Assembly (NCBI RefSeq): GCF_013297935.1 | Contig: NZ_JAAFIX010000002.1 | Span: 1 to 64,000 of the forward strand | DNA length: 64,000 bases | Reading direction: 5' to 3' | Source: Rhodoferax sp. | GTDB taxonomy: Bacteria > Pseudomonadota > Gammaproteobacteria > Burkholderiales > Burkholderiaceae_C | Shown: positions 42,883 through 64,000 of the stretch, piece after piece | How the letters are laid out: the number at the start of each line of letters is the position of its first letter | How positions within the stretch are numbered: position 1 is the stretch's first letter | Notes under the pieces: model-generated | What the model was told of the DNA's origin: nothing | Seen by the model: the letters and a program-made list of their open reading frames with translations, nothing else | Databases searched by the model: none | Made by a program: the position numbers and the translations under genes

Positions 42883-42932
42883 TGGTGGGCGATGCAAGTT
42901 TCGAACTTGCGACCCCTGCAGTGTGAATGCAG
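42883..42932 (-). mobile_element. tRNA-Val(CAC) 3' fragment: probable attachment site (att) of an integrated element
   Basis: Minus strand CTGCATTCACACTGCAG is the anticodon arm with CAC. It is followed by GGGGTC, the T-arm GCAAGTTCGAAACTTGC, and ATCGCCCACCA, the 3' acceptor strand with CCA. The D-arm and 5' acceptor strand are missing: upstream sequence changes abruptly to a C-rich region. A 3' tRNA fragment of about 50 nt followed by the native terminator is the classic scar left at the distal end when a tyrosine integrase uses a tRNA 3' end as attB. Confidence 0.8.
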
Positions 42933-42939
42933 TTTAGCC

Positions 42940-43033
42940 CAAACCCACCTCAACTCCCCAGAGGGGGAACCTCCACCCACACCCCCTCCAAACCACCCCA
43001 ATCCCACCCAAATTACACTGGGAATTACACCGG
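42940..43033 (-). repeat. G-rich strand tract and 12-bp tandem repeat next to att
   Basis: On minus, a run of at least five G-tracts (GGTGGGATTGGGGTGG, GGAGGGGGTGTGGGTGG) could form a quadruplex. Adjacent on plus, AATTACACTGG and AATTACACCGG repeat at 12-bp spacing (43011 and 43023). Position next to the att scar suggests a terminal element structure such as accessory binding sites, but this is inference. Confidence 0.5.
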
Positions 43034-50690: not shown

Positions 50691-51146
50691 TTCACGGCAC
50701 CAGGAAGGTGGCCCCAAAAAATGGCTGAGTTTAGAGCTGGTCTGGCAGAACAGCTCAAAATCCAATGCGCCTTTTCTGTGATGCCGCGGTCGGGATTTCG
50801 GGCCAATCGGACACCCTGATCCGCTTCCTGCCGTCTGCCACTGCGGTGGCGATGGCGCACTCCATACGCACCCGCGCTTCTCGTGGGCTCAGCCCTTCGG
50901 CAAGGTAGACCACTTCTTCGGACACCGTCTTTGGCAGGCCAAGCCCGATCTCCCGGGCAAGGGCCGCGTAGATGCTGCGCACGACGTCGCGGTGCTGGTC
51001 GGTGTCAGGGGCTGGGATGTGAAAAACTGTCATGTGTGACAGCAGGGGCTCAGGAATTTTTGTGGCGTCATTGGCTGTCAGAAAGAACCGGACGCGGCTG
51101 ACATCCATCAGCGCATCTGGAACGGACTGATCTTGGAATCTCGAGG
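50691..51146. repeat. Duplicated segment, copy 1 (partner at 54778-55233)
   Basis: 456 bp matching 54778-55233 without any net length difference, beginning TTCACGGCACC (TTCACGGTACC in copy 2) and ending GAATCTCGAGG at the left end of the IS. It includes the non-coding lead ccaaaaaatggctgagtttagagctggtct and the 3' part of the AAA+ ATPase gene. Scattered substitutions show it is not a very recent copy. Confidence 0.85.
50755..51146 (-). pseudogene. Truncated AAA+ ATPase (C-terminal ~130 residues), cut by IS
   Basis: From SRFQDQSVPDALMDV to the C-terminus TAASQKRRIGF it parallels residues 296-424 of the intact ATPase at 54842-56116, with differences such as LSHMTVFHIPAPDTDQHRDVV for LSRLTVFHIPAPDQEQLRGVA. 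The Walker A and B half is missing; the first about 26 codons of the track ORF belong to the IS. No longer functional as an ATPase. Confidence 0.85.
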
Positions 51147-51209
51147 TGAAGCCCCCTTGAAAACCTGAGCCAGTTGGGAGTAGAGAGTTCCAACCAATGG
51201 AGTCTCTAC

Positions 51210-51476
51210 GTGAAGAAATCAAAGTTCAGCGAAAGCCAAATCGTCGGCATCTTGAAAGAGGTCGAAATGGGAGCCCGGGTCGGTGAGACGTGCAGGAAGC
51301 CCGGAGTCAGCGAGCCCACCTATTACAAGTGGAAAAGCCAATACTCAAGCATGACGATGCCGCACCTGTCACAACTGCGTGAACTGCAGGACGAGAATGC
51401 CCGTCTCAAACGCATGTACGCAGATCTGGCCTTGATGCACAACGCATTGAAGGATGTTGTTGACCGAAAGCTCTGA
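51210..51476 (+). CDS. IS3-family transposase OrfA
   Basis: 88 aa from GTG 51210: KKSKFSESQIVGILKEVEMGARVGETCRKPGVSEPTYYKWKSQYSSM (helix-turn-helix) followed by a leucine zipper LRELQDENARLKRMYADLALMHNALKDVVDRKL. Provides DNA binding to the terminal repeats. Intact. Confidence 0.9.
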   Translation: MKKSKFSESQIVGILKEVEMGARVGETCRKPGVSEPTYYKWKSQYSSMTMPHLSQLRELQDENARLKRMYADLALMHNALKDVVDRKL

Positions 51477-52269
51477 CCCCGCAGCGTCGCGAAACGGTTG
51501 TGCAATCGTTGATAGCCGACCATGGCATGAGCCAGCGCCAAGCCTGCATTGCCAGTGGCGTTGCCCGCTCGACACTGCGCTATCTGCCTGTGCCACGCGA
51601 CGACTCCGGGGTAATCGCCTTCATTCAAAACCACATGGCACTGAACCCACGCCATGGATTTGACCTACTCTATGACAGCGCGCGTCACCAAAAGCGGCCA
51701 TGGGGCAAGACAGTGCTGTGGCGTGTGTATTGCCAACTGCGGCTGAACCGCCCCGGCGCGGCAAGAAACGGCTCCCTGACCGAATCAAGCAGCCATTGCA
51801 GGCAGCGAGCCAACCTAACCAGGGCTGGAGCTGCGACTTCATGTCCGACGCGCTGTGGTCAGGACGACGATTCAGGACGTTCAACGTCATCGATGAATAC
51901 AACCGGGAGGGTCTGCGTATTGAAATCGACACAAGCTTGCCAGCAGCGAGAGTGATACGTGCATTGAGTGAATTGGTCGAAGTACGTGGAGCGCCGCTGT
52001 CCATTCGCCTAGACGCCGGCCCCGAGTTCATTGCCCACGCGTTGGCCGAATGGGCCAAGACCAAGGGCATTGCACTGAACCACATCCAACCAGGAAAACC
52101 GACCCAGAATGCCTACGTCGAAAGATTCAACAAGACCTATCGAACCGAGGTGCTGGACTGCTACGTCTTCGATTCACTGCACGAAGTCAGGCAGATGACC
52201 GCGGACTGGCTGCATCGATACAACCACCACCGACCACACGAATCGCTGGGCCGTATTCCGCCGGTCTAG
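51473..52269 (+). pseudogene. IS3-family transposase OrfB, frameshifted
   Basis: The frame starting LTPQRRETVVQSLIADHGMSQRQAC breaks near 51760: LRLNRP is followed in the other frame by RRGKKRLPDRIKQPLQAA. One C is missing from the run in cgccccggcgcgg. The second half retains the rve integrase core: WSCDFMSDAL (first Asp), FNVIDEYNREGL, IRLDAGPEF (second Asp region), and KPTQNAYVERFNKTYRTEV (catalytic Glu). The copy is therefore probably immobile unless complemented. Confidence 0.85.
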
Positions 52270-52484: not shown

Positions 52485-53885
52485 TCAGTTCACTTCTAAC
52501 AGGGCAGAGTGCAAGTCCGCTTTGAGAGGACCGCTGACTGAAAGCTTCAACGCATAACCAGTCGTATCGAAGATCGCGTTTTGAATAAGACTCAAATCCA
52601 GCTCTGGAGTGTTGGCCGTGAAACCGTCATGCTGCAACAGGAGAATGTTTTCTGAAAAAACATTGTGAGCCGCCTCCAAAGCGACTGATTCAACGCCCTG
52701 GAGGAGATGTGCCAGCCTATGCCGCGCCTTCTTGCCGGCAGTACGCATGACCAAACCGCAAGCATTGCGCAGACCGCCCCGGAACGGCCGATGCGTTTTG
52801 AGAATAACTGAGCTCGCCTTGGCGACATCCCCAGCCAACGCTTTGAAAAAATGGTGTTGATACAGGGCTCTCGCGGCTTCGACTCCACCAAGCATCTCTG
52901 GAATTGCGGCGTCCGGATCTTCCGATAGCCCCGCACCATAAACCAACGCAAGCAGCGCCTTTTTTACCTGCCGAGGTGTGAGACCCAAATTGACCGCCAA
53001 ATCCGCGCGAATGGTGGCCTTGTTATTCAAATACTCTTCAATCACTGCGCATTGAAGCCCAGCTTTGGCTGCCATTTGCATGAGTATTGCGTAATGACAA
53101 TTTTCGATGTCATAGTCCCACATTCCGTGCAGTGCGGAGTACCGCACCTGTCGATTGACGGCCTGTAAATTGATGCCCTGCGCGTACATACGTCCGCTAT
53201 TTGATTGCTGGTACTTGTGAATTACGCAGCCAGGCGCTACTGAGTTGTTCGCGTGATGCAAGACAGTGCGAATTGCGTCGAGGACAAAGCCCGCATTTTT
53301 TTTGTCCACCGGCCAGTGTGAACTTTCGTCAGCGTGGGTTTTGGCAAGTTCAGCTTGGATTTCCAATTCAAACTGGCTCAACTGCTTCACGTTAACGGGC
53401 ACTTCCGAAAGAACCAGGTTCGCGTTCCACCCGCACCTTGTTGCTTCTTTGCCGTGGTCAGTAGTCCGTTTTGCCATCAACCCATTTCTGGGTGACTTGT
53501 GTCGAACTTCGCCATTGCCGGATAGCAATTTAGTGGGACTCTCTGGAGTGTTCGCAAAAAAATCTTTTCGCAAAACCTCAACATTCGCGGTCAGTTTGAA
53601 AGGTTTGGTTCGACCCTCGATCTTTGACCAATCGTCAACAACCTCAAAAATGCGCAGCTTTGCGTTGAGTCGATTGAATTTATCTCGACCGAAATTTCTT
53701 TCCAGTTCAACGTAAGAAAATGAAGCCCAATCACTAAAGTGCGAATGCTGTCGGTATCTTGATGCCGACTGGAGAATCATGCTGGCAAGTTGTGTTTGGG
53801 TGCTCAACTCAAGCGCGGAATATCCAAACAAGTTCGCTGCGAGGTGATTTCTAAAGGCGTCTGAAATATAAGCATCTCTAATCAT
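52485..53885 (-). CDS. Polymerase-like protein with family A DNA polymerase / T7 RNA polymerase palm motifs
   Basis: 466 aa from ATG 53885 (MIRDAYISDAF). The N-terminal about 110 residues look like a winged-helix, replication-initiator-like region (YVELERNFGRDKFNRLN). The C-terminal half carries three motifs in the correct order and spacing: A, WDYDIENCHYAIL (about 256-268); B, RQVKKALLALVYGAG with K-x7-YG (about 305-319); C, ILLLQHDGFTA (about 414-424). LLQGVESVALEAA before C matches the QGxxA helix of polymerase A. This is the catalytic signature of single-subunit polymerases. It probably replicates or primes the mobile element. No exonuclease domain is seen. Confidence 0.65.
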   Translation of the reverse strand: MIRDAYISDAFRNHLAANLFGYSALELSTQTQLASMILQSASRYRQHSHFSDWASFSYVELERNFGRDKFNRLNAKLRIFEVVDDWSKIEGRTKPFKLTANVEVLRKDFFANTPESPTKLLSGNGEVRHKSPRNGLMAKRTTDHGKEATRCGWNANLVLSEVPVNVKQLSQFELEIQAELAKTHADESSHWPVDKKNAGFVLDAIRTVLHHANNSVAPGCVIHKYQQSNSGRMYAQGINLQAVNRQVRYSALHGMWDYDIENCHYAILMQMAAKAGLQCAVIEEYLNNKATIRADLAVNLGLTPRQVKKALLALVYGAGLSEDPDAAIPEMLGGVEAARALYQHHFFKALAGDVAKASSVILKTHRPFRGGLRNACGLVMRTAGKKARHRLAHLLQGVESVALEAAHNVFSENILLLQHDGFTANTPELDLSLIQNAIFDTTGYALKLSVSGPLKADLHSALLEVN

Positions 53886-54300
53886 GTGAAATCGACCGTG
53901 TTTTGCAGCAGCGACCAACGGACCGTGTCCCGGAAGTACAAATTTTTTCGTTGACTTGAATGGATGTCTTGATGGTATTTCAGTGTCTTTGCTTTTGTGT
54001 GCAAATTGGCATGCATCCAGCCAGTTTGGTTTGAGCTGATTTTTCCGACAAAAAAGAACGTGGAAGAGATTTCCGTGCGCCGCAATTGATTCAGATCCGA
54101 CTAACAGTGGCCTTCAATGCACAAAACACCACAAATGCACAGGAACAGGAACATCAACGGAGACACACAGACAACGCACAACACACAACACACTGCTTTA
54201 ACTCACAAGGACTGCTCGGAGAAGTGCATTAAAAGCACCGCGACAGTAGAAATGAGTTGGTAACGAAGGGGTTTAATTTTTTTCGGAAACTGCCACGCAT
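53886..54300 (-). other. Upstream region of polymerase gene, A/C-skewed; possible origin
   Basis: 415 bp with no credible ORF. Positions 54117-54200 on plus are almost purely A/C-rich (acaaaacaccacaaatgcac, acacacagacaacgcacaac) with very few T or G. Strand-asymmetric tracts next to a replication gene are typical of origins, but no iterons are identified. Confidence 0.35.
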
Positions 54301-54495
54301 TGCATCTTGGTTGGGCTGAGTCGTCACAGATTCAGGCCAATCACCTGAGGTCCAGCGCTTCCTGCTCGGCGATAAATCCTGCATCGCGCACAGATCGACC
54401 AAGATCGGACCACCCCGCAGCGCAAGCGAAATGGTGGGCTGCTGCCGGTTTCAAAGACACTTTGTTAAGGTTGTCGATGAAACAGGAGATTGCAA

Positions 54496-54708
54496 ATGGC
54501 AACGGGAAGGCAATTCAGCCGGGAGTTCAAGGTTGAAGCTGTAAAGCTTGTAACTGAACGCGGGGTTGGCGTGAGCCAAGCCGCACGGGATTTGGATCTG
54601 GGGGAAACGGTTCTACGCCGTTGGATGCGAGAGCTGACGCAAGACCCGCAGCAGGCATTTCCTGGCAAGGGTGTCATGAAGCCCGAACAAGCCGAGATTG
54701 GTACGTAA
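54496..54708 (+). pseudogene. Truncated IS3-family OrfA remnant
   Basis: MATGRQFSREFKVEAVKLVTERGVGVSQAARDLDLGETVLRRWMRELTQDPQQAFPGKG is the N-terminal HTH part of an IS3-type OrfA, different from the one at 51210. After GVMKPEQAEI the expected leucine zipper and the whole OrfB are absent. The following GTGTCCACGGAACCGGCAGCAG (about 54750) may be the right end of the same element. Internal deletion derivative. Confidence 0.8.
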
Positions 54709-59054: not shown

Positions 59055-60854
59055 TCATACCTCCAAGTCCATTACCACGCGAAAGCTGACCTTCGCGTTC
59101 TTGTAGGCTCCCCACGAGGTAGACCCGATTTGTCCTTCCCAAAATCGTCCACTGATCCACTCCCATTCCTGACACCACTCGTAGGCGTCCCAAGCATCAA
59201 TGAATGTCAGTCCTTGGTACTGTGCCCATGGCAGCGGATTCTTCCAAGTAGCACGAGGCGGAAAGTCATCAATCCATCGCTTACGCGACTTAGAAGTTAC
59301 TCCACTCTGCGGCGGTAGCTCTGGCACGTCTACACTTGGTTCAATGAAACGTGGCTCAGACCAGATCACCGCAGATGGCACTTCACGGCCTTCCTCTTCA
59401 CGTTGATCTGTTGCAAGTGGACGGGGTGGATATTCCTCCCAGGGAAAGCCCCTTTTCGCCAATGAATCGTAATGATGCGAATAGGCTGATCGAAGCGACC
59501 TAAGCTCCCCTCGGGTCGGAAGCCTCAGCGCGACACCAAGCTGACGCTCAAACCAAGCACAGAAAGCTTGTGAATCGACCCATGTAGCCCCAGCCGGCGA
59601 GTCATCTGGCTCACCATCATTCGCCCGCTCCCATGGCTCTTGGTTATCGGATCGGCGCTCAGCGTACCCGGTCTCAATAAGCATCCTGCGAAACGAGCCG
59701 ACAGTGATGAGCTCGCTCATGGCAACTTTACGCCCCTCAACCAGTGTGACTCTAAAACCCGGGGGAATGTCTCCAGACCACCGCACCCGCTCCAGAACAG
59801 GCAGCGTTCCCTGCTCGCGCAGCCAAGCACCTCGAACATCTACTGAACTGTTCAGTTGACGGGCCTGAATGTTTCCACCACGGTCGTAGAAGGCCTGTTC
59901 AGCCTCGTGTGCCTCGTGCTCCTCCCAAACTCCTTGGCGGAAATGTATCCGCCTATGAAGGTCGTTTTGGGTCATCAACCGCGAAGGTAAATCCTCAATC
60001 GCGAGATGATACGAATGCCCAAGGGAACTCGGTTGAGGTGGCTCTTTCTCGCGGTAATTGCGCCAAAGAATATCCCAGCCGCCATCATGGCCGCGAAGAA
60101 TCATCAAGCGGTCGCTGTAACGAAGAATATCGACCCATCCCTCCGGTTGAGGATCGAAAACAGCGCGAAAAGCAACCACTGCTGCCGTCGTACTTGCATA
60201 GTGCGTCTTACGCTCCTCTGGGTCGAAACCAGGCGCCCAGTAGGTCTTGTCAACGATATGACGCACAGGACCATCAATGAGCTTGTCGTCGAGAAACCCC
60301 CACTGCCCCATCAATTGATGTCTCTGCGTAAAGAGGTTCTCTGCACGCTGGCGCGCGCTTTCCGCACCGACAGTGAGCGAAGCGATTGCGGCTGCAGGCG
60401 TGTCATAGCCATTACCCTGATCCCAAGCTGCCCAGTTCACGCCATAACCGAGGAATACGCGTTGAGGCGCCGGAAGTTGAGCTTCGAAAAGGCGATCCGC
60501 CAGATCTCTCGGACTTGGCCCTGTACCTCCACTGAAATACAGATCTGTACAGCCACCGTTGTCAACCGGAAATACTTGGACTCGGTGGGTGCATCGGTTC
60601 CGCTTCAGGAAATCTTGAAAATCTGGCCACCCTTTCGATAGAAATGAGCCAAAGTCACCTTTAAAACCCAAGCAATTCACTATCGCGTTGAGAGTCAGTC
60701 GGTGCTGAATAGGCTCTTTTTCTGGATGTAGTACACGGCGCTTGGCACCTGCTTTGATCTCGTCGGGGGAGATGCCAGACAACGGAATGGCGTGTCCATC
60801 TCGCAGCAGCAGGTAACCAGGTCTGGGGGAGGCTTTGTTGAGGCCAATAGACAT
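59055..60854 (-). CDS. Large protein with C-terminal formylglycine-generating-enzyme-like (SUMF1) domain
   Basis: 599 aa from ATG 60854 (GGAGAAGAAT-ATG). The N-terminal about 370 residues do not match a family I know (motifs RVQVFPVDNGGCTDLYFSGGTG and RVFLGYGVNWAAWDQGNGYDTPAAA). The C-terminal about 200 residues have SUMF1/FGE-type order: MSELITVGSFRRML, ATWVDSQAFCAWFERQLGVALRLPTRGELRSLRSA, FPWEEYPP, DAYEWCQEWEWISGRFWEG and the ending KVSFRVVMDLEV (FR.V). The catalytic Cys pair of true FGE is not evident, so it may be a binding C-type-lectin-like version. Coupled to the downstream 112-aa gene. Confidence 0.65.
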   Translation of the reverse strand: MSIGLNKASPRPGYLLLRDGHAIPLSGISPDEIKAGAKRRVLHPEKEPIQHRLTLNAIVNCLGFKGDFGSFLSKGWPDFQDFLKRNRCTHRVQVFPVDNGGCTDLYFSGGTGPSPRDLADRLFEAQLPAPQRVFLGYGVNWAAWDQGNGYDTPAAAIASLTVGAESARQRAENLFTQRHQLMGQWGFLDDKLIDGPVRHIVDKTYWAPGFDPEERKTHYASTTAAVVAFRAVFDPQPEGWVDILRYSDRLMILRGHDGGWDILWRNYREKEPPQPSSLGHSYHLAIEDLPSRLMTQNDLHRRIHFRQGVWEEHEAHEAEQAFYDRGGNIQARQLNSSVDVRGAWLREQGTLPVLERVRWSGDIPPGFRVTLVEGRKVAMSELITVGSFRRMLIETGYAERRSDNQEPWERANDGEPDDSPAGATWVDSQAFCAWFERQLGVALRLPTRGELRSLRSAYSHHYDSLAKRGFPWEEYPPRPLATDQREEEGREVPSAVIWSEPRFIEPSVDVPELPPQSGVTSKSRKRWIDDFPPRATWKNPLPWAQYQGLTFIDAWDAYEWCQEWEWISGRFWEGQIGSTSWGAYKNAKVSFRVVMDLEV

Positions 60855-60866
60855 ATTCTTCTCCAA

Positions 60867-61475
60867 TGGCTATCCTTTACCTTCCCCAAAGCCGCCAGAG
60901 GGAAGAGAGATAGCACTGAATAAGACACATGTCAAAATCACGCCGATGCGGCGTAAATGAAAAGTCCATTTTGAGTGGACACATTGACGTAGCGAGAGAA
61001 CTTGCTATCGGCGCTGGCGGCACCGACGATCCTGCTGGGCGTCTCAAAGCCCGATAAAATTCTAACCCAACATTGAACTTGGTTTCAAGCTCGCACAATC
61101 ACTTTATGTGACGCTTGAGCGATTGACATGCACCCTCTCAGCCACAAGAGCCTGCGTTTAATGAACTTCGTCAACCAACCGGTTAGTGGCGAATTTGAAG
61201 AAAAGAGGCTCAAATCATTTGTTTCCTTGGTCAGGCTGAGCCGGGCCTTTACACCCTTGCGCCTTGCCTCAACGTTGATTTCAGTGAAGTCATATTCCAG
61301 AAACGGCAAGCGAATTCCACGATGTTTTCATTAAAAGACTCGAAGCACCGAGCTGACCAGCGTCAGCTTTACGCCCCTCTTCACGTTGATCCGAACTTTA
61401 TTGGCTTCAAATGAAACTCTGAGGCAATGAGTCAATTGAAAATGAAGTGTGAAACTGGAATGATTGAAGGCTGAT
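60867..61475. other. Gene-poor gap before the methyltransferase
   Basis: About 600 bp. Two overlapping small ORFs (61085..61309 minus, 74 aa; 61128..61334 plus, 68 aa) are open, but neither has a recognisable motif or clear ribosome site. The last 140 bp should hold the methyltransferase promoter. Confidence 0.4.
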
Positions 61476-62582
61476 ATGACAGTAAAGATAAATTCAAAGT
61501 TGGCCATCACTCCGTCTATTGAAGGGGTCGACCTTTTTTGCGGTGCGGGTGGACTTTCTTGCGGACTGGCAGCGCAAGGTATAAAGGTGGTCGCAGGTAT
61601 CGATGTGGACCCAGCTTGTGAGTTCCCCTACGAAGCGAACCACAAGGGCGCCAAATTCTTATTGCGTGATGTCACAACAATCAGCGGCAAAGAACTAAAC
61701 GATCTTTGGTCCCCGGGCGCTCTACGTTTGTTAGCAGGCTGCGCTCCATGTCAGCCTTTTTCAAGCTACGCAAACACGGCAACCGTCGACCAGGCTAAGT
61801 GGCGGCTGCTTGAAGAATTCGCCCGACTTGTTGATGAAAGTCAGCCAGATCTGGTCACCATGGAGAACGTGCCTCGGTTGCAAAGAGAGCAGCCATTTCA
61901 AGATTTTTTGAAGGCATTGGAGCGCGGCGGATACCAAGTGGCCTATGCTGTCCTAAATGCCGCTGACTTTGGTGCGCCGCAAAAACGAAAGCGCTTGGTA
62001 TTGGTGGCATCGCGCCTTGGCCCAGTCTCAGTTCCAGAACCGACACACAAAGGGACAAAAAACTGGGTGACTGTGCGCCAAGCCATCGGACACCTTAACA
62101 AGCTCAACGATGGCCAGACCTGCAAAACCGATCCTTTGCACACAGCTTCAAGCCTTTCGGAGCTAAATCGTGCACGGATAAAAGCCAGTAAGCCTGGCGG
62201 CACTTGGCGAGACTGGCCTCCTGAACTTGTGGCAGCTTGTCATAAGCGCGAAAGCGGCAAGCACTCCGCCGGCGTTTACGGACGTATGGAATGGGACAAA
62301 CCAGCGCCAACGATGACGACATTGTGCAACGGCTTCGGCAACGGACGCTTTGGACATCCAGAGCAACATCGCGGCATCTCGCTGCGTGAGGCTGCAATCT
62401 TCCAGTCTTTTCCAGAGACTTATCAATTCACTCCAAAAGGTGAAAGCGTAGTCATCAAAACTGTTGGTCGTTTGATTGGAAATGCAGTTCCGCCAAAGCT
62501 TGGGGAAGCTGTGGCTAAGGCACTCTATGCATCACTGCCTGCTTCGGCCGCCACTTCATTGGCCGGGACAAGAGCCAAGTAG
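61476..62582 (+). CDS. DNA (cytosine-5-)-methyltransferase
   Basis: C5 methyltransferase with ordered motifs: I VDLFCGAGGLSCGLAAQG (SAM binding), IV LLAGCAPCQPFSSYA with the catalytic Cys near residue 92, VI DLVTMENVPRLQ, VIII QKRKRLVLVASR, and X at the C-terminus KTVGRLIGNAVPPKLGEAVAKAL. The stretch between VIII and IX (target recognition) is short. 368 aa from ATG 61476; the track TTG 12 bp upstream is less likely. Its 3' end overlaps the convergent HEPN gene by 58 bp. Recognition sequence unknown. Confidence 0.93.
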   Translation: MTVKINSKLAITPSIEGVDLFCGAGGLSCGLAAQGIKVVAGIDVDPACEFPYEANHKGAKFLLRDVTTISGKELNDLWSPGALRLLAGCAPCQPFSSYANTATVDQAKWRLLEEFARLVDESQPDLVTMENVPRLQREQPFQDFLKALERGGYQVAYAVLNAADFGAPQKRKRLVLVASRLGPVSVPEPTHKGTKNWVTVRQAIGHLNKLNDGQTCKTDPLHTASSLSELNRARIKASKPGGTWRDWPPELVAACHKRESGKHSAGVYGRMEWDKPAPTMTTLCNGFGNGRFGHPEQHRGISLREAAIFQSFPETYQFTPKGESVVIKTVGRLIGNAVPPKLGEAVAKALYASLPASAATSLAGTRAK

Positions 62583-63286
62583 CGCCGGTTTTGAAGGTAG
62601 TTGTCGACCTCCATTGAAATTTTTCGCAAGGTCTCAAACACTGCGATAGAGTCAGCCTCCAGAGCAGGAACCGCGAGATCTCGACCTAAATCAGTGAAGC
62701 TCTTTTCGCCATGAGCCAACTCATTTCGATTGTTCTTCACTTTTTGAAGGGCTTGGTCTGTCAAATGGGCTGGTGGACGGTCATCGGGGGTTGGAGATAC
62801 CACTCCAAATTTCTTCAACTGCTCGTAAATAACAAGGCTATCAACGCTGCCTGAAATTCCGTCAACGCGCTTGTCCTTGCCTGAAGTTCGACTTTTCCAG
62901 TCATCCATCCAATACCTGAATAGGCTTGTATGAAGGGGCGCAGCGGACGAAAGCACTTTAGCTTTAGCGTCTTTTTTAACAGTTCGCAACACCAACCGAA
63001 GCAACTGCGCGTTCAGATCGTCCGCACTGGAGCAGTTGGCACCAATAACATCGTGCATTTCATCCAGAAGTTGAATCAACGTCGCCTCCATTGCGCTGTA
63101 AAGCAAAAGCAACAGATTTGCCTTAAGCGTGTGCGTGAGCTCCAAACCCAACGGGAACTGCACTTCACCATCTCTCGCGCTTAAGACCGCACGCCGCTCG
63201 ACCGCGACTTTCAGAAACGCTACGTATGCACTTGCCTCATGCGCTCTCTGCCTAAGGAGGTCATCCGTAAGGGGCACATGGCTCAT
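62525..63286 (-). CDS. MAE_28990/MAE_18760-like HEPN nuclease
   Basis: 253 aa helical protein. LTHTLKANLLLLLYSAMEATLIQLLDEMHDVI in the first helices and KVKNNRNELAHGEKSF carry the HEPN signature RxxxxH (R187-N-E-L-A-H192), the active-site motif of HEPN RNases. The overall layout matches the MAE_28990-type family that accompanies DUF262 proteins. ATG 63286 overlaps the DUF262 stop by 4 bp (ATGA), so the two are translationally coupled. Convergent and overlapping with the methyltransferase gene. Confidence 0.82.
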   Translation of the reverse strand: MSHVPLTDDLLRQRAHEASAYVAFLKVAVERRAVLSARDGEVQFPLGLELTHTLKANLLLLLYSAMEATLIQLLDEMHDVIGANCSSADDLNAQLLRLVLRTVKKDAKAKVLSSAAPLHTSLFRYWMDDWKSRTSGKDKRVDGISGSVDSLVIYEQLKKFGVVSPTPDDRPPAHLTDQALQKVKNNRNELAHGEKSFTDLGRDLAVPALEADSIAVFETLRKISMEVDNYLQNRRYLALVPANEVAAEAGSDA

Positions 63287-64000
63287 GAAAAGAGCCCAGG
63301 TTGTACTTCGCCCCCCTCATCCTCAGGAGTGTCCGGTGGTGAGTCAGCGTTGGCACTGTTTTCGACCACAGCGGTATCTTTATCCTCCACAAACGTCTTA
63401 CCCAATAAATTGTCACGCACATAGTGAATGCGATTTATCAACTTTGGTCGGGAGTTGCTTGCGTCAGAGCGGGTGTGTTTGATGAATTCCTTGCTGTCAA
63501 GCCACAAGTCCAAGTTCCCTGGGACAAGGTCGGGCTTTTCCCTTAGCGCAAGTGAAAGACCAACGGCGATGACTTCAAAGCGGATACGTGGAACAGTTGT
63601 GTAGCCCACTCGCTTGAATCCGTTGGGGAAATATTCAGACACAAGGTTTAGCATTTGGACAAATTCGCCAAGCATTGCAGCCTTGTCCACCTCATGAAAA
63701 CTCTGGTTCTTACTACGCAGATAATCTGTGAGGAAGTCATCGACACTTTTCTGGAAAGCTTGGTAATTGTTGAGGTAGGCGAAATACCGCAAAACGAACT
63801 CTTCGTATTCCTTTCGTTTTGCATTTCGTTCATTCAGTGGAACAAGTTTTTTGAAATCTTCATTGGCGGCACACTCTGTGATAAACGTCATAAAAGGTCC
63901 GTCAACTACGCCTCGCCGAACTTCCATAGTCGTAAGCCTTGTCCCGCCAGAGTTCAATCGATCAAACATTTCTCGACGTGCATCTTCATCGGCTTTTTCA
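63283..64000 (-). CDS. DUF262 (GmrS-like) protein, N-terminal part beyond window
   Basis: The reading frame runs off the right edge (EKADEDARREMFDRLNSGGTRLTTMEVRRG...), so the ATG at 63969 in the track is internal. FDRLNSGGTRLTTMEVRRGVVDGPF is the C-terminal hallmark of the DUF262 domain, which has a ParB/Srx-like nucleotide-binding fold and forms the GmrS half of GmrSD restriction enzymes. After it come about 200 residues of helices and an acidic tail (DTPEDEGGEVQPGLFS); no HNH/DUF1524 domain follows. It likely pairs with the coupled HEPN protein instead. Confidence 0.85.
   Translation of the reverse strand, partial: EKADEDARREMFDRLNSGGTRLTTMEVRRGVVDGPFMTFITECAANEDFKKLVPLNERNAKRKEYEEFVLRYFAYLNNYQAFQKSVDDFLTDYLRSKNQSFHEVDKAAMLGEFVQMLNLVSEYFPNGFKRVGYTTVPRIRFEVIAVGLSLALREKPDLVPGNLDLWLDSKEFIKHTRSDASNSRPKLINRIHYVRDNLLGKTFVEDKDTAVVENSANADSPPDTPEDEGGEVQPGLFS

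Follow-up and report, generated by a model that had tools for sequence, protein, structure and literature searches.

TV-Pols are family A DNA polymerases of transposons, phages and virophages, described by Iyer, Abhiman and Aravind, with a minimal family A core, no nuclease domains and a mobile-element lifestyle as defining traits (Iyer et al., 2008; PMC2579912). One subset is linked to D5-like helicases, while another carries an extra N-terminal domain and is found beside resolvases, integrases or transposases (PMC2579912). A relative from SCCmec, CcPol, makes DNA primers de novo together with an SSB partner and alone only extends primers (PMC7581432; PMC10061031); it keeps E710 and F762, the Pol I residues that reject ribonucleotides. 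Pol-SSB pairs have been reported from Bacillota, in the gene order polymerase, SSB, helicase, and second-strand synthesis of DNA that enters in single-stranded form has been suggested as the task of such PolA-SSB primases (Rice, 2023; PMC10061031).

In the current study, we analyzed a 64,000-nucleotide stretch of DNA from Rhodoferax sp. (the window) and found that the product of one of its genes (Table 1) belongs to the TV-Pol family A polymerases, in the subset that has an extra N-terminal domain and resides on plasmids and integrative elements. An earlier note on this DNA had proposed a compact palm polymerase of mobile elements, and the fold, the profile comparisons and the neighbours of relatives all bear this out, as does the lack of an exonuclease domain, for which no Pfam nuclease match was found. 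Describing the gene as part of an unusual module was overstated, because TV-Pols with similar resolvase and integrase neighbours have been known since 2008 (PMC2579912) and CcPol is a proven primase-polymerase (PMC7581432); the window gene is thus not of a new kind. Family, fold class, conserved catalytic residues and the linkage of relatives to plasmids and to an SSB-like gene were each computed directly.

Table 1. Features of the polymerase gene and its neighbours in the window (residue numbers refer to the polymerase).
Feature	Residues	Position	Strand	Basis or remark
TV-Pol family A polymerase gene	1-466	52485..53885	minus	Intact ORF, 466 aa (466 codons + stop)
Polymerase start		ATG at 53885	minus	Alternative in-frame TTG at 53918
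N-terminal domain	1-145	53451..53885	minus	Winged-helix-like topology H-H-E-H-H-E-E; AF2 models
Two-helix thumb	166-185 + 195-212	53250..53390	minus	Directly before hairpin; AF2 secondary structure
Beta-hairpin GRLY..NLQ	219-241	53163..53231	minus	R232 invariant; aligns with TGRLSS..NLQN of PolA
Palm motif A	256-264	53094..53120	minus	Catalytic D259; H264 at Pol I E710 position; alignment, profile comparison
Fingers	280-317	52935..53048	minus	Invariant R293, K308-x7-Y316-G317; L312 at Pol I F762 position; alignment, AF2
Palm helix LAHLLQGVES	387-409	52659..52727	minus	Conserved H393 + E399; alignment, AF2
Palm motif C LLLQHDG	414-424	52614..52646	minus	Catalytic D420; alignment, AF2
Lon-type AAA+ ATPase, 424 aa		54842..56116	minus	Pfam AAA 8e-13; upstream of polymerase
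MobV-like relaxase, 330 aa		56257..57249	minus	40% identity over 81 aa to pH8NP1 relaxase

The polymerase gene is single-copy within its own genome, and the plus strand opposite it is stop-rich. Its ATG start agrees with the aligned starts in several homologues, and a consensus scan revealed no clear promoter. Searches of the protein against Pfam, NCBIfam, PHROGs and PDB sequences returned no family match, profiles of the polymerase family likewise found nothing in the PDB, and the Pfam model PF00476 did not match at E 10, so that the likeness to Pol I appears at the profile-profile and fold level only. At that level it is clear. Compared by hhalign with 31 bacterial PolA domains, the family profile scored 65.6 (E 4e-8), against at most 26 for 100 column-permuted profiles, and single PolA sequences scored 41-59. 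The resulting alignment pairs GRLY/NLQ with TGRLSS/NLQN of PolA, D259 with the DYSQIE Asp, and K308-x7-YG with the corresponding K-x7-YG. An even higher score was obtained with MAP_030 of the cyanophage Ma-LMM01 (73.4, E 1.3e-9; maximum of 60 column-permuted profiles, 25). This protein is probably the published Ma-LMM01 TV-Pol, since it is the sole ORF of that phage with a noteworthy match, transposases adjoin it, and the text of the paper agrees. A scan for TV-Pols with the Ma-LMM01 protein as query returned only near-identical copies. The ordinary 'DNA polymerase' of the same phage, MAP_178, was considered as a protein that might be confused with the family member and set aside, scoring 113 with PolA and 26, the control level, with the window family. 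A 'Clp N-terminal domain' annotation carried by one relative was also discarded, as the match occurred in 1/24 members.

Conservation was counted in an alignment of 24 sequences, the window polymerase and 23 homologues. The earlier note had read motifs A, B and C in the expected order, and these family A palm motifs are indeed conserved in that order across the alignment, with Y225, G231, R232, Q241, D259, K308, G317, E399 and H419-D420-G421 as the palm-defining positions that are kept. Arg 232 of the GRLY hairpin and D259 of motif A are present in all 24 sequences, K308 of K-x7-Y-G in 23/24 and Q241 of NLQ in 22/24, while E399 (LLQGxE) and D420 (HDG) occur in 22/22 each. Two details of the earlier reading needed correction. 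The string D-Y-D-I-E-N is present as motif A, and its catalytic Asp is the third letter, D259, because relatives have either D or E as the first; in the helix that precedes motif C the letters are QGVES instead of QGxxA, with E399 as the conserved residue. The fingers comprise three helices in which the Arg at position -4 of K308 is not conserved, an invariant R293 lying one helix earlier; MAP_030 likewise has no Arg at -4 of its fingers Lys.

In an AlphaFold model of the polymerase (pLDDT 89, pTM 0.87), helix pair, hairpin, palm and fingers follow one another as expected, and the hairpin region has short strands at 220-222, 225-227 and 233-235. The presence of a palm fold was confirmed by a fold search, in which every one of the 50 top PDB matches is a family A DNA polymerase, natural or engineered; Klenow, Pol theta, Taq and T7 DNA polymerase lead the list (E 4e-8 to 1e-5). 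Their TM-scores on the query, 0.36-0.47, are modest, as expected for a reduced and divergent version of family A. In a viral fold library, the Zamilon virophage replication protein and the Qinghai Lake virophage helicase/primase/polymerase ranked 13 and 14. The winged-helix-like region suggested for the N-terminus is seen as a topology in the model, but Foldseek gave the domain no significant fold match, the best being MarR proteins at E about 0.2.

Taken beside the published TV-Pols, the window family shares the two palm Asp residues, the hairpin Arg, the helix pair of the thumb, the fingers, the absence of nuclease domains and, with one subset, the extra N-terminal domain; resolvase, integrase or transposase neighbours recur among its relatives too. 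It differs in that the Arg of the fingers RxxxK is not conserved, that no D5-type helicase is seen beside its genes, and that its N-terminal domain is winged-helix-like, whereas an all-helical one was predicted for TV-Pols (PMC2579912). With Pol I (PF00476) it has in common the palm, fingers and thumb plan and the GRL..NLQ, D705, K758, Y766 and HD positions. Unlike Pol I, it has no exonuclease domain and does not keep R754, E710 or F762. The position of E710 is occupied by His in 23/24 sequences of the window family and that of F762 by Leu or Ile in 20/24, in contrast to Glu and Phe in 31/31 PolA sequences, and in this respect the family also departs from CcPol, in which both residues are kept. 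Given the priming by CcPol and the replacement of these residues here, a primase-polymerase that perhaps accepts ribonucleotides is plausible.

A first scan of genome contigs with a single sequence as query returned zero relatives, but they were found with the alignment as query, which reached 20 further homologue loci. Homologues are carried by two Polaromonas plasmids (46% and 33% identity to the window protein), distant ones by two phage types, and others by a few genomes of the same phylum. Matches occurred in 12/401 sampled genomes of the same family and in 0/4 other genomes of the same genus, a patchy distribution that is expected for a mobile gene. In a tree, the window protein groups with those of pH8NP1 and the Rhodoferax plasmid (support 94/94); deeper branching is unreliable because of long branches. 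Circular replicons of 7-12 kb carry five of the homologues; pH8NP1 and pW9NP1 were deposited as circular plasmids, and the other three replicons have exact terminal repeats (91 bp in the Rhodoferax replicon L081, 55 bp in L011, 127 bp in L012). The last two, catalogued as viral in IMG/VR, resemble circular plasmids, with ParA or a serine recombinase adjoining the polymerase. Large Vibrio (L009:2945-4801) and Desulfovibrio (L010:3146-5449) phages encode distant relatives of the polymerase embedded in longer proteins, and that of the Vibrio phage adjoins an RNase HI gene.

Among the neighbours of the homologues are serine recombinases (11 loci), ParA (7), RepA (4) and tyrosine integrases (3), a set with RepA_C and phage integrases that accords with the TV-Pol paper. 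MobV relaxases occur at pH8NP1, the Rhodoferax plasmid and the window; for the pH8NP1 relaxase, the match to the NCBIfam MobV model (1.9e-8) falls short of the curated cut-off. Neither the 25 commonest neighbour Pfam families nor the scanned window neighbours included a D5-type helicase. The replicase role proposed earlier is therefore doubtful, as the plasmids of relatives carry their own RepA, which argues against the polymerase as sole replicase, and no such helicase turned up beside the gene. For both Polaromonas plasmids, cloned REP regions, which may or may not have included the polymerase gene, replicate (PMC6015842). Identity between pH8NP1 (L007) and the Rhodoferax plasmid is 48% for the polymerases but 71-89% for RepA, ParA, serine recombinase, MobV and SSB, which hints at fast polymerase evolution or gene swapping.

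Directly upstream of the polymerase and on the same strand, pH8NP1, L014, L018, L081 and pW9NP1 (in the last across the start of the record) carry a gene for an SSB-like protein of ~125 aa. Four of the five proteins match phrog_378, 'single strand DNA binding protein' (E 3.2e-5 at best, over almost the full length, and 0.0057 at worst), and three of the five match Pfam DUF669, below its cut-off. The protein had no PDB sequence match and no relatives on viral contigs, and among 72,556 plasmids its gene was found only on the two that carry the polymerase. Judged by sequence, then, the plasmid loci hold a putative Pol-SSB pair of the kind described by Rice (2023), here in Pseudomonadota; the literature searched contained no description of one from this phylum, although one may have been published elsewhere. 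As with CcPol-MP and the PolA-SSB primases, a family A polymerase of mobile elements is accompanied in plasmid relatives by a small, putative SSB, with serine recombinases nearby. In contrast to the CcPol type, with its SSB gene downstream, the SSB-like gene here lies upstream, no helicase is seen and no exonuclease relic was identified. The pairing is restricted to one part of the polymerase family, and the window copy has no adjoining SSB gene: neither such a gene nor a relic of one was found near the window polymerase or in its genome.

The window differs from these plasmids in what surrounds the gene. Over most of 42000-64000 the GC content drops from ~0.61 to 0.47-0.56, beside a tRNA-Val at 42883-42959, which places the polymerase in a likely genomic island running to the window end. 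The AAA+ ATPase and the MobV-like relaxase, both named earlier as neighbours, were recovered (Table 1), but insertion of a pH8NP1-like plasmid does not by itself account for the block, because the likeness of the relaxases extends over only 81 aa and is far below that of the polymerases. As far as its sequence tells, the AAA+ neighbour is a Lon-type ATPase and not a recognised helicase. In Thauera sp. 28 (L017), the polymerase is immediately followed by a homologue of this ATPase (34% identity), and on the strength of these two loci polymerase and ATPase may be linked. A truncated second copy of the ATPase gene, 87% identical over 300 nt, is present on the other side of the polymerase at 50755-51222. 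By eye, this copy is cut at an IS3-type insertion (51174-52269), and an IS3 orfA-like frame is seen at 54490-54708, so that IS3-type frames flank the polymerase. Also by eye, 61464-63969 holds C5-cytosine methyltransferase-like, HEPN-like and DUF262-like genes, possibly a restriction or defence cluster, and the C-terminal part of a 603-aa protein at 59055-60866, which has no Pfam or NCBIfam match, resembles a formylglycine-generating-enzyme fold.

From these observations we infer an enzymatically active polymerase capable of de novo priming, and consider it probable that this TV-Pol primes and copies the complementary plasmid strand as a primase-polymerase, the window copy being a partly stripped relic. 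Nucleotidyl transfer would use two metals bound by D259 and D420, with the single-stranded template held by the thumb helices, the R232 hairpin and the helix-turn-helix fingers. Recruitment to single-stranded plasmid DNA might be the task of the winged-helix-like domain at the N-terminus, together with the adjacent SSB in plasmid relatives; there the polymerase would start and extend the complementary strand, either following MobV-type transfer or in the course of RepA-dependent replication. By analogy with the PolA-SSB primases, second-strand synthesis of incoming single-stranded DNA would be the most fitting use, and it suits a mobilizable plasmid. The window copy would be an intact chromosomal relic, which RepA, ParA, serine recombinase and SSB genes do not adjoin. 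A more specific version, which we put forward tentatively and regard as possible though somewhat unlikely, is that the plasmid lineage has a two-part primase of TV-Pol and a DUF669-type SSB that uses its replaced ribose gate to lay down RNA or mixed primers and renders single-stranded DNA double-stranded after MobV transfer.

The enzyme could instead be a primer-dependent DNA polymerase, a replicase or gap-filler of the element that is unable to prime alone. Its fold and profile are closest to those of family A DNA polymerases, and CcPol is limited to primer extension when its partner is missing (PMC10061031), the window copy being similarly partnerless. The argument from TV-Pol context favours priming, however, and the Pol I ribose-gate residues are replaced. 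Plasmids could, moreover, leave elongation to the host replicase. We therefore consider a purely primer-dependent enzyme unlikely. A rather improbable view, confined to the window gene, is that it is a silent remnant without present function, whatever the family does elsewhere. The missing plasmid genes beside it, the IS3-type frames seen by eye on both sides, the truncated ATPase copy nearby and the failure of the consensus scan to reveal a clear promoter are in keeping with decay, but the frame is intact over 466 aa and all family-invariant residues are kept. The gene product might also be an accessory protein for defence or counter-defence, its palm polymerase serving immunity and not replication. 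This would accord with the divergence of the polymerase relative to the plasmid backbone (48% vs. 71-89%), with the methyltransferase-like genes seen by eye in the island, and with a defence role being left open for PolA-SSB primases (Rice, 2023; PMC10061031). Against this, the genes linked to the relatives belong to plasmid replication and partition or encode a recombinase or SSB, no one defence module recurs among them, and such a role seems distinctly improbable. Transcription of the element by a T7-like single-subunit RNA polymerase, a kinship suggested in the earlier note, seems very improbable: the K-x7-Y-G spacing and HD motif do resemble T7 RNAP, the Glu of Pol I E710 is kept in neither and the His in its place in the window family makes ribonucleotide use conceivable, but the profile score of 19, obtained with one RNAP sequence, lies within the permuted range (up to 26) while single PolA sequences reach 41-59, no RNAP is among the 50 best PDB folds, and no promoter-recognition domain was identified.

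In the literature searched, CcPol-MP of SCCmec is the only TV-Pol branch that has been tested biochemically. The window branch is compact, carries no helicase or exonuclease relic, resides on well-defined plasmids of 7-12 kb, and differs from CcPol at two residues that help decide between DNA and RNA building blocks. Worthwhile in their own right are the pairing of polymerase and SSB on plasmids of Pseudomonadota, the changed ribose gate, and a polymerase that has diverged fast compared with its plasmid backbone. The branch would offer a clean test of whether TV-Pols proper are primases, of which sugar they use, and of whether the pairing with an SSB has arisen more than once.
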